Assembly: GCA_015490605.1 (NCBI GenBank)
Contig: WFXL01000152.1
Location: forward strand, 1 to 54,339
Reading direction: 5' to 3'
Length of the DNA stretch: 54,339 bases
Source of the DNA: Rhodospirillales bacterium
GTDB lineage: Bacteria; Pseudomonadota; Alphaproteobacteria; Geminicoccales; Geminicoccaceae
The position numbers and the translations under genes were made by a program. The notes beneath the pieces are model-generated. The model saw only the letters and a program-made list of their open reading frames with translations, was not told the origin of the DNA and ran no database searches. Each line of letters opens with the position of its first letter. Positions within the stretch are counted from its first letter, which is position 1. This document shows, one piece after another, positions 28,665 through 32,413 of the stretch.

Positions 28665-29102
28665 ATGGCCACCACCCCCCATCATGCGGTGCTCACCCTC
28701 ACCACCCGCAGCCGCCGCGAGACCCACGACCTCACCGATCAGGTGGCGACGGTGGTGCGCGCAAGCGGCATCCGCCGCGGGCTGGTCCATGTGGCCTCAC
28801 TCCACACCACCGCCGCCATCACCATCAATGAGCACGAGCCGCGTCTGATGCAGGACCTGCTCGACTGGCTCCACCGAATCGCCCCGGCCGGCGCCGGTTG
28901 GCGCCACGACGCCCTCGCCGCCACCATCCCGGGCGAGCCGCCCAACACCGATGCCCATCTTGCCGCCATGCTGCTGGGCCGCGGTCAGACGGTGCCCGTC
29001 GAGGAGGGGGCGCCGCTCTTGGGCACCTGGCAGCGGATCATCCTGGTGGAGCTGGACGGCCCGCGCACGCGGCGGGTGGCGGTGACGGTCACCGGCCCAT
29101 GA
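28665..29102 (+). CDS. yjbQ: YjbQ (UPF0047) family protein
   Basis: GLVHVASLHTTAAITINEHEPRLMQDLLDWL...NTDAHLAAMLLGRGQTVPVEEGAPLLGTWQRIILVELDGPRTRRVAVTVTG. Confidence 0.9.
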   Translation: MATTPHHAVLTLTTRSRRETHDLTDQVATVVRASGIRRGLVHVASLHTTAAITINEHEPRLMQDLLDWLHRIAPAGAGWRHDALAATIPGEPPNTDAHLAAMLLGRGQTVPVEEGAPLLGTWQRIILVELDGPRTRRVAVTVTGP

Positions 29103-29872
29103 GCGCGCTCAGGGCGCTGCTGTGGGACGTGGACGGCACCCTTGCCGAGACTGAAGGGCTGCACCTCGAGGCCTTCAACCGCGCTTTCCACGACTTCGGC
29201 CTAGATGTGACCTGGTCGGAGGATCTCTATCGCGAGCTCCTGCAGGTCACCGGCGGGCGCGAGCGGCTGCGCCACTATTTCGCCCGCTACCGCCCGGACC
29301 TCGTGGCGCGGGTGGATGTGGCCGCGCTTCACGCCCACAAGACCCGTCTTTACGGCGAACTCGCCCGCAACCGGCTGCAACTGCGCCCGGGGGTGGTGCG
29401 GTTGCTTCGGGAGGCGAAGGCCACGGGCCTCGCCCAGGCGGTGGTCACCACCACCAGTCGGGTCAATGTCCAGACGCTGCTGCGCCAGACCCTGGGGGAG
29501 GAAGGCGAGCGCCTGTTTGACGTCTTTGCCACCGGCGAGGATGTGACGCGCAAGAAGCCGGCGCCGGACCTCTACCGGGTTGCGCTGGCGCGACTTGGGC
29601 TTGCGCCCGAAGCCTGTCTCGCCCTCGAGGACAGCCCCCTCGGCGTGGCGGCCGCGCGGGCGGCCGGGGTGCCGGTGGTGGTGGTGACCAGCCCCTGGAC
29701 CCGGGATGCGCGCTTTTCTGGGGCGCTCGCCGTGTTCGACGGTTTCGGCGAACCGGATGCGCCCGGCCGGCGGCTCGATGGCGGGTCCCCACCACCGGGC
29801 GGATGCCTCGATCTCGCCAGCCTGCGGGCCCTTCACCGCGAGGCTGTCAGGGACGCGGGGCGCGCTTGCTGA
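29099..29872 (+). CDS. HAD-family phosphatase, CbbY-like
   Basis: LRALLWDVDGTLAETEGLHLEAFNRAFHDFGLDVTWSEDLYRELLQVTGGRERL...VTRKKPAPDLYRVAL...CLALEDSPLGVAAARAAGVPVVVV. Confidence 0.88.
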   Translation: MSALRALLWDVDGTLAETEGLHLEAFNRAFHDFGLDVTWSEDLYRELLQVTGGRERLRHYFARYRPDLVARVDVAALHAHKTRLYGELARNRLQLRPGVVRLLREAKATGLAQAVVTTTSRVNVQTLLRQTLGEEGERLFDVFATGEDVTRKKPAPDLYRVALARLGLAPEACLALEDSPLGVAAARAAGVPVVVVTSPWTRDARFSGALAVFDGFGEPDAPGRRLDGGSPPPGGCLDLASLRALHREAVRDAGRAC

Positions 29873-30404
29873 GGATGCGCTGGAGGGTGCGGCGGTGCAT
29901 GCCGAGCCGGCGGGCGGTCTCGGAGACATTGCGGCCGCACTGCTCATAGATCCGCTGGATGTGCTCCCAGCGCACCCGATCGGCCGACATCGGCCGTGCC
30001 TCCTCCACCGCCGCCAGCGCCATGGGATCGCCCAGCAGCGCCGCCGCCAGCCGTTCGGCGTCCACCGGTTTGGCGAGATAGGCCCAGGCACCGCTCTTTA
30101 CCGCCACCACCGCCGAGGCGATGCTGTCGAAGCCGGTAAGCACCACGATGCGGGCCTGGGGGTAGTGGGTGCGCAGCTCGCGCACCAGGTCCATGCCGTG
30201 GCCGTCGGCGAGGTTGAGGTCCACCACCGCAAAGGCCGGGGTGAAGTCCTCCAGCACCTCATAGGCCTCATCGAGGCTGCCGGCGGTGCGCACCGCAAAG
30301 CCGTGGCGCTCCAGAAGACGCTGGAAGGTGCGCCGCAACCCGGGATCGTCGTCTACCAGAAGCAGCGGCCCGGGCCGCGCGGACATCGCCTCCGGACGGG
30401 GCAC
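29847..30404 (-). CDS. ActR/PrrA/RegA-family response regulator, divergent paralogue
   Basis: Receiver LLLVDDDPGLRRTFQRLL...FAVVDLNLADGHG...VVLTGFDS...AYLAKPVDAERL plus RegA HTH MSADRVRWEHIQRIYEQCGRNVSETARRLGMHRRTLQRILSKRAPR. Confidence 0.88.
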   Translation of the reverse strand: MPRPEAMSARPGPLLLVDDDPGLRRTFQRLLERHGFAVRTAGSLDEAYEVLEDFTPAFAVVDLNLADGHGMDLVRELRTHYPQARIVVLTGFDSIASAVVAVKSGAWAYLAKPVDAERLAAALLGDPMALAAVEEARPMSADRVRWEHIQRIYEQCGRNVSETARRLGMHRRTLQRILSKRAPRP

Positions 30405-30407
30405 GGA

Positions 30408-31001
30408 TCACTCCCGCGGGGCGCGCTTGTTGAGGATGCGCTGGAGGGTGCGGCGGTGCATACCGAGCCGGCGGGCGGTCTCGGAGACGTTGCGGCCGCA
30501 CTGTTCGTAGACCCGCTGAATGTGTTCCCAGCGCACCCGATCGGCCGACATGGGCTTGCACGGCGGCGGCGGCAGGCTGCTGCCGGCATAGAGCAGGGCG
30601 TTGGTGATGGAATCGGCGTCGGTAGGCTTGGCGAGATAATCCACCGCGCCCGCCTTGATGGCGGCCACCGCGGTGGCGATGTTGCCGTAGCCCGTGAGGA
30701 TCACGATCCGCATGCGCGGGTGGATCTCACGGAGCTTCTTCACCAGCTCCAGCCCATTGCCGTCCTCAAGGCGCATGTCCACCACCGCGAACTCGGGCTT
30801 GACGTTCTGCGCCACCGGCAGCGCTTCCTGCACCTTGGCAACGGCGTGAACGCGAAAGCCCCGGCGCTCCAGCGCCCGCACCAGCATTCGGCGGAGCGGC
30901 GCGTCATCGTCGATCAGCAGCAGGTTGGGCGGCTCGGTGCCATCGCTCAGCCCCAGTGCCGCGGCTGCACGACGCGCATCGACGACGGTCTCGGTGGTCA
31001 T
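30408..31001 (-). CDS. regA: Redox response regulator RegA/PrrA/ActR, canonical copy
   Basis: LLLIDDDAPLRRMLVRALERRGF...FAVVDMRLEDGNGLELVKKLREIHPRMRIVILTGYGNIATAVAAIKAGAVDYLAKPTDADSI...MSADRVRWEHIQRVYEQCGRNVSETARRLGMHRRTLQRILNKRAPRE. ATG at 31001. Confidence 0.92.
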   Translation of the reverse strand: MTTETVVDARRAAAALGLSDGTEPPNLLLIDDDAPLRRMLVRALERRGFRVHAVAKVQEALPVAQNVKPEFAVVDMRLEDGNGLELVKKLREIHPRMRIVILTGYGNIATAVAAIKAGAVDYLAKPTDADSITNALLYAGSSLPPPPCKPMSADRVRWEHIQRVYEQCGRNVSETARRLGMHRRTLQRILNKRAPRE

Positions 31002-32413
31002 GGCGTCTCCTCCTCGATGGCCCGTTGCAGTCGATCCTCCGGCCAGTGCAGGCACACCCGTGCTCCCCGAGCCCCGTTGGCGAACTGGATACGAGCGCCG
31101 GTGCGCTCGAGCAACGTCTTGGCGATGAACACCCCGAGCCCGAGCCCGCCCTCGCCGCGGCGGGTGGAGACATAGGGCTCCCCCAGCCAGTCGAGGATGT
31201 CGGGGGCAAAGCCGGGGCCGTCGTCCTCGATGGTAACGGTGATCCCGGTGCGCGCCAGTTCCACCTGGATCTCCACCCGGCTGGTGGCGAACTCGCAGGC
31301 GTTCTCGATGAGATTGGCGAAGGCGTGGCGCAGCTCCGGCGGCAGGGTGACCTCGGGTTCGGGCGTGTCGTCGTGGTGGACGGTCTCCACTTCCACCGTG
31401 ATCCCCGGCCGCCCCCATTCCTCGGCGATATCGGCAAGGGCGTGGGATAAGGGGATACGGCTCAGCCGCGCCAGCTCGCGATCACGGGCATGGCGCCCGA
31501 GCCCGCGGAGGATCTCGCGGCAGCGCTCCGCCTCCTGGACGATGCAGGCCACATCCTCACGCAGCGGATGGTCCTCCGGCAGGGCGCTGAGCACCTCGCG
31601 CGCCGCCACAGTGATGGTGGCAAGCGGGCTTCCCAGCATGTGGGCAGCGGCCGCCGCCTGGCTGCCCAGGGCCGACATCTCGCGCTCGCGCGCAAGCGCC
31701 AGCTGGGCTTCCACCAGCGCGCTCGCCCGCCGCCGGGCTTCCTCGGCGAACTGGAAGGTGTAGGTCGCCAGGAGCACCGTGCCTACGAGGAAACCGGTCC
31801 ACACCGCCACCCGATAGAGCGGCGGGAAGGCGAGGGTGCCGTCGAACCAGGGAAGCCCGTCGTCGGTCAGGGCCAGAAGGGTGGCGAGCGCGATGGCGGT
31901 GAGGCCCACCACCACCGTCCAGTTGCGCCCCAGCTGGCCGGCAGCCAGCGCCACCGGCACCAGCATCAGCAGCGCGAAGGGGTTGGCGAGACCGCCGGTA
32001 AAGTGGAGCAGCCAGGCGAGCTGGGCGAGATCGAAGAGGAACAGCAGCCCCACCGCCCGCTCCGACAGCCGCGCCGACCAGCCCAGCACCAGCCCCAGGG
32101 TGATGTTGACCAGAATGCTGGCAGCAATCGCCGGCAACAGCCAGCTCAGGGGCAGCGGGATGCCGAGGGAGAAGTGGACGAACAGGACGGTGAACAGCTG
32201 ACCGATGACCGCCACCCAGCGGGTGAGCGCCAGGGTGTAGTGGCCGATGCGACCGTGGTCGGCGAAACCGGCCTCACCGTCGCGTTCGGTCAGAAAGCGC
32301 AGGAGCCGCTCGCGCCAGCCGCCGAGCCGCGGGATCCCGAAGCGCAGCCGGGCGCGTCCGTCAACGCCCGGGACTGCGAGCGAGGACCGTCTCGAAGAGG
32401 CGGAGATAGGCAT
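30998..32413 (-). CDS. regB: RegB/PrrB-like redox sensor histidine kinase
   Basis: TRWVAVIGQLFTVLFVHFSLGIPLPL, quinone-binding motif GGLANPF, H-box AAAAAHMLGSPLATITV, Cys 40 residues after the His (ERCREIL), ATPase LIENACEFA...IEDDGPGFAPDIL...GGLGLGVFIAKTLLERTGA. Start uncertain. Confidence 0.88.
   Translation of the reverse strand: MPISASSRRSSLAVPGVDGRARLRFGIPRLGGWRERLLRFLTERDGEAGFADHGRIGHYTLALTRWVAVIGQLFTVLFVHFSLGIPLPLSWLLPAIAASILVNITLGLVLGWSARLSERAVGLLFLFDLAQLAWLLHFTGGLANPFALLMLVPVALAAGQLGRNWTVVVGLTAIALATLLALTDDGLPWFDGTLAFPPLYRVAVWTGFLVGTVLLATYTFQFAEEARRRASALVEAQLALAREREMSALGSQAAAAAHMLGSPLATITVAAREVLSALPEDHPLREDVACIVQEAERCREILRGLGRHARDRELARLSRIPLSHALADIAEEWGRPGITVEVETVHHDDTPEPEVTLPPELRHAFANLIENACEFATSRVEIQVELARTGITVTIEDDGPGFAPDILDWLGEPYVSTRRGEGGLGLGVFIAKTLLERTGARIQFANGARGARVCLHWPEDRLQRAIEEETP

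Follow-up and report, generated by a model that had tools for sequence, protein, structure and literature searches.

The window considered here is a stretch of 54,339 nucleotides from a Geminicoccaceae genome, known as a 2.19 Mb draft assembly of 157 contigs (89% complete). On its minus strand a glycosyltransferase gene is followed by a compact cluster in which the gene of a RegB-type kinase lies directly ahead of two genes for RegA-type response regulators, here called RegA1 and RegA2. The features of the cluster are the following:

30998..32413, minus strand: RegB/ActS/PrrB-type redox histidine kinase (NF033792 profile score and motifs; start uncertain, the ATG at 32413 is proposed)
30408..31001, minus strand: RegA1, canonical RegA/ActR/PrrA response regulator (NF033791 score and receiver tree; ATG start, 197 aa)
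29847..30404, minus strand: RegA2, diverged paralogue (NF033791 score below cut-off; RegA2 receiver clade, support 100/99; GTG start, 185 aa)
30411..30551, minus strand: Fis-type HTH segment of RegA1, one half of the probably converted repeat (direct repeat, PF02954, HTH tree, site patterns)
29850..29990, minus strand: Fis-type HTH segment of RegA2, the other half of the probably converted repeat (direct repeat, PF02954, HTH tree, site patterns)
30771..30773, minus strand: Arg77 of RegA1, position D+2 (alignment column table; Arg in 21/21 RegA1)
30213..30215, minus strand: Asn64 of RegA2, position D+2 (alignment column table; Asn in 21/21 RegA2)

The start of RegA1 overlaps the stop of RegB (ATGA), and the GTG start of RegA2, preceded by GGGAG, lies 3 nt past the stop of RegA1. 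This gene spacing suggests co-transcription and translational coupling of RegB, RegA1 and RegA2. A scan of the region for the sigma-70 consensus, the only type of promoter covered, found no promoter-like site. The 3' end of RegA2 overlaps by 26 nt (29847-29872), within its HTH segment, the convergent plus-strand gene of a HAD-type hydrolase (29096-29872). The plus strand of the window between 24387 and 29872 carries two open reading frames resembling, as judged by eye, the complex I subunits NuoM and NuoN, and after these, ahead of the cluster, an ordinary set of genes of the biotin ligase, isochorismatase, UPF0047 and HAD hydrolase families.

The kinase reaches 441 bits with NF033792, the equivalog profile for ActS/PrrB/RegB (cut-off 350), and has the H-box HMLGSPL, the quinone-type motif GGLANPF (GGxxNPF) and a redox cysteine in ERCREIL. 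Against the ActR/PrrA/RegA profile NF033791 (cut-off 250) RegA1 passes with 275.7 bits, and RegA2 falls 15 bits short with 234.6. An earlier note, made from the letters of this DNA, had placed both regulators in the RegA/ActR family; RegA1 belongs there by its score, and RegA2 is a RegA paralogue by descent which we do not file as a canonical RegA. Both have a Fis-type HTH, a conserved cysteine ahead of it and the catalytic residues of the receiver, and the alignment columns contain in both the acidic pocket, phospho-Asp, Thr and Lys already recognised in that note. The proline-rich linker is represented in RegA1 by PPPP; RegA2 has no PPP run, here or in any of the 21 RegA2 proteins described below. 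The kinase thus resembles those of the RegB/RegA systems (PrrB/PrrA, ActS/ActR, RegS/RegR) in its H-box, quinone-type motif and redox cysteine, and the regulators resemble theirs in the Fis-type HTH and in the cysteine before it, which in R. capsulatus forms a redox disulfide (PMC9147068). Unlike these systems, the locus has two regulators behind one kinase, and RegA2 has Asn at D+2, TGYDSIAS in place of TGYGNIAT and no polyproline hinge.

Within the region, the two HTH segments make up the strongest direct repeat (29854-29994 and 30415-30555; 141 nt, ungapped, 94% identical, spacing 561), whereas the receivers, which share 55.7% DNA identity, appear as a direct repeat of only 70% over 98 nt. 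Aligned by codon, the HTH segments differ at 8 nucleotides ahead of the last codon and in two amino acids (I/V and N/S), exactly as counted in the earlier note, and its description of the receivers as strongly diverged agrees with the above figures. Of the 36 HTH codons that specify the same amino acid in both copies, 30 are identical where local codon usage predicts 19.1 (P = 6.5e-5); the corresponding receiver codons are identical in 32 of 61 cases, against 29.2 expected (P = 0.27). Since the HTH codons exceed the codon-usage expectation and those of the receivers do not, the likeness of the HTH segments is greater than chance or shared constraint would give.

RegB, RegA1 and RegA2 occur in the same order in 21 of 32 genomes of the order examined, the pair always being behind RegB. 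Nine of the other genomes are without the tandem pair, including one with two separate RegA copies (G007) and one with a distant second system (G006), and two incomplete genomes gave no match at all. In a class-wide sample of 389 alphaproteobacterial genomes a RegA match at E <= 1e-50 was found in 212. Outside the Geminicoccaceae a single RegA is present in 204 of 207 RegA-bearing genomes, as had been supposed for most alphaproteobacteria; the three others have two copies, far apart or on different contigs, and the tandem pair is absent from all 207. A second RegA was likewise not found nearby at 78 other alphaproteobacterial loci. With three two-copy genomes, none of them tandem, and no neighbouring copy at these 78 loci, the pair is rejected as a general alphaproteobacterial feature. 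No description of a RegA tandem pair was found in the open-access literature searched.

The RegB tree unites all 21 genomes that bear the pair with three single-copy genomes, G011, G016 and G018, in one group (support 92/97), and the other single-copy genomes lie outside. The receiver protein tree places RegA2 in one clade (100/99) and RegA1, together with the single copies of these three genomes, in another (99/96); RegA2 is a long branch, whose rooting is approximate. The simplest reading is one regA duplication inside the Geminicoccaceae followed by three losses. The duplication is old and predates the radiation of the pair-bearing clade; a recent local duplication is rejected, because the receivers split before this clade radiated and the pair is common to a large part of the family. 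Of the duplication with preserved HTH proposed in the earlier note, gene conversion stands, as detailed below, and the recent and local event does not. The note had held that its proposal would suffer if many relatives encoded the pair with ordinary divergence along the whole gene: many relatives do encode it (21/32), but the divergence along the gene is not ordinary.

DNA trees of the HTH and of the receivers, built from the same 42 sequences, are in conflict. The receiver tree shows a clean RegA1/RegA2 split (100/100), whereas the HTH tree rejects a RegA2 clade (AU p 0.000555, delta lnL 104.7). In the HTH tree the two HTHs of one genome group together in G001, G026 and G030 (starred support) and, at weaker support, in G008, G009, G020, G029 and in the genome of the window (G000); the receivers reject such same-genome pairing in 7/7 genomes tested. 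Site patterns for G000 and G001 join paralogues 7 times and orthologues 0 times in the HTH, against 9 and 64 times in the receivers (Fisher P 3.6e-6). When the genome pairs, which are not independent, are all added up, there are 1215 paralogue-joining versus 308 orthologue-joining patterns in the HTH and 2338 versus 9221 in the receivers. The synonymous difference between the two HTHs within G000 is 0.216, compared to 0.30-0.32 to their own orthologues in G001 and G002 of the same genus. Paralogues closer to each other at silent sites than to orthologues, in part of the gene and with conflicting trees, are the mark of concerted evolution, and this is the configuration found here.

Identical HTH codons exceed the codon-usage expectation strongly in the genus of the window (g1) and in g6 and g8, and weakly in members of g7, g14 and g15; no excess over codon usage is present in genera g2 and g10, where recent conversion is not detectable. 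When partners were permuted across nine genomes representing eight genera, P was 0.0003 for the HTH and 0.02 for the receivers, the latter small effect being attributed to shared codon usage. Excess identity extends over the HTH and all but vanishes in the receivers. The same-genome clustering of the HTHs, the site patterns and the codon excess confined to this domain argue for conversion that recurs episodically and affects the DNA-binding domain only. Gene conversion of the HTH between RegA1 and RegA2 is thus highly probable, and the suggestion of it in the earlier note is supported by the permutation, the codon-usage null and the HTH tree.

Two of the single copies look like RegA1/RegA2 chimeras from HTH-HTH recombination, which would delete the RegA2 receiver and leave a chimeric single gene. 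That of G016 has a RegA1 receiver and linker, the RegA2-type end SKRAPRP and downstream DNA matching the RegA2 flank of G028, and that of G011 has a RegA1 receiver and the RegA2-like end SKRAPR; assembly collapse is the alternative for both. As an account of the whole pattern, mixing or collapse of the two repeats in short-read assembly, to which the many metagenome assemblies and the chimeric singles could point, is hardly credible, given copies which are not identical, a gene order identical in 21 genomes and a pattern that holds in the one-contig genome G008 (30/36 codons, P 1.5e-4). It is also very improbable that there was no conversion and that purifying selection on the HTH protein and strong codon bias acted alone. 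In its favour are the strong conservation of the HTH protein, a third-position GC of about 0.8-1.0 and genera g2 and g10, which fit this explanation, but for g1, g6 and others it is rejected by the codon-usage null, the permutation (P 0.0003), the site patterns and the AU test. Simple codon bias is rejected by the codon-usage null and the cross-genome control, and refuted for the genus of the window.

A parallel to the HTH conversion is the concerted evolution of mammalian TLR1/TLR6 (PMC2077338), in which neighbouring paralogues have likewise been homogenised along one part of the gene and have diverged along the remainder; the present case differs from it in concerning a bacterial response regulator homogenised only in its DNA-binding domain.

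RegA2 differs from RegA1 at a position associated with kinetics, on the output side of the receiver and in the linker. Position D+2 is Asn in 21/21 RegA2, versus Arg in 21/21 RegA1, 6/6 other singles and 8/9 outgroups. T+3/T+4 are Asp-Ser in 21/21 RegA2 versus Gly-Asn in RegA1, and Ser replaces Thr at T+7 in 21/21 RegA2. Asp at K-4 and K+3 is fixed in RegA1 and variable in RegA2, and the polyproline hinge is lost in RegA2 (PPP run in 0/21, against 21/21 RegA1). The D+2 residue affects the kinetics of phosphorylation and dephosphorylation (PMC8510515, PMC12632262); the direction of the change from Arg to Asn is a prediction only, because Arg is hydrophilic too. The catalytic residues are fixed in 21/21 RegA2 and the redox cysteine is kept as well; with all catalytic residues in place, loss of function of RegA2 is rejected. 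The kinase-facing helix is mostly kept in both regulators, and at position 21 of helix alpha-1, which faces the kinase, RegA1 and RegA2 never match within one genome. The inputs of the two had been thought to be separated, which is not upheld: both genes lie behind one RegB, and both products retain the catalytic residues together with the greater part of the kinase-facing helix. Every pair differs at two HTH positions (N/H versus S/A after the recognition helix; last residue E versus P/S or absent), so that DNA reading by RegA1 and RegA2 may not be fully equal.

The sequences themselves show an old duplication, domain-limited conversion and fixed changes in the switch of RegA2. In the model we propose, a single regA duplication within the Geminicoccaceae gave rise to RegB-RegA1-RegA2; purifying selection has since held the protein sequence of the HTH, and recurrent conversion between the neighbouring HTH segments has homogenised their DNA in one lineage after another, as the receivers drifted apart. 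RegB most likely feeds both regulators, as indicated by the shared cluster and the largely kept kinase-facing helix, and with their near-identical HTHs both most likely read the same predicted sites. RegA2 would then most likely modulate the RegA regulon: it would compete with RegA1, or take its place, at the same promoters, as a regulator whose phosphoryl lifetime differs (D+2 Arg to Asn), whose output face is altered (GN to DS; Asp at K-4/K+3 lost) and which has no hinge; such competition, already envisaged in the earlier note, is plausible. To the explanation as a whole, i.e. duplication, conversion and tuning of the RegA regulon by RegA2, we give about an even chance. The functional model of one kinase and two regulators with the same predicted sites and different switching properties is offered more tentatively. 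Branched two-component systems, of which Roc of Pseudomonas (PMC12051241) is an example, similarly tie several regulators to shared kinases; here, in distinction, the two outputs proposed have one and the same DNA-binding domain, and phosphotransfer is a prediction.

An unlikely alternative for RegA2 is that it is non-phosphorylated or decaying and merely occupies RegA sites as a dominant-negative partner. Its changed output face, lost hinge and score below the family cut-off would suit such a protein, but a decaying receiver would not keep all catalytic residues fixed in 21/21 cases. Conversion may also be passive, the near-invariant HTH keeping adjacent copies recombinable with no need of selection for equal heads, and the role of RegA2 may be unrelated. 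This is a serious possibility, if somewhat short of even, and nearly as likely as a selected role. It agrees with an HTH protein almost unchanged in outgroup RegA proteins and with conversion that is episodic and absent from some genera without loss of the pair, but it leaves unexplained, though it does not forbid, a RegA2 with the whole HTH kept in 21 genomes and fixed receiver changes. Within our preferred reading, in which RegA2 tunes the RegA regulon, a further step is more doubtful: selection might keep gene conversion as a device forcing both proteins to read the same sites while their switches specialise. RegA2 would then compete with RegA1 under the same kinase, being either short-lived or gated in another way, and the global redox regulon would depend on how much there is of each of two proteins that share a single DNA-reading head.

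After a duplication, two-component regulators are commonly held to part by altering their choice of partner as well as their DNA targets. In this family the DNA-reading half has stayed equal, down to the DNA, throughout its history, while the signal half diverges. The RegB/RegA system itself is known; for its evolutionary pattern here, gene conversion in response regulators, the open-access papers searched gave no precedent. The 21 natural pairs, converting and non-converting, offer a test bed for whether shared binding sites constrain duplicates, and trees and annotation based on the HTH will misplace such paralogues.

Some relatives without the tandem pair show peculiarities of their own. 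RegB is strongly diverged in the single-RegA relatives G013, G014 and G023, with GALANPF/GALSNPF replacing GGxxNPF, and that of G013 has an altered H-box (HDLATPL). The second RegA of G007 (C36:164000-170500) lies away from the other copy, forms a long branch and has no match to RegB beside it, in a genome which is 7% contaminated. The second, distant RegB/RegA-like pair of G006 (C1:3099500-3105000) has about 29% and 44% identity and is perhaps RoxSR-like.
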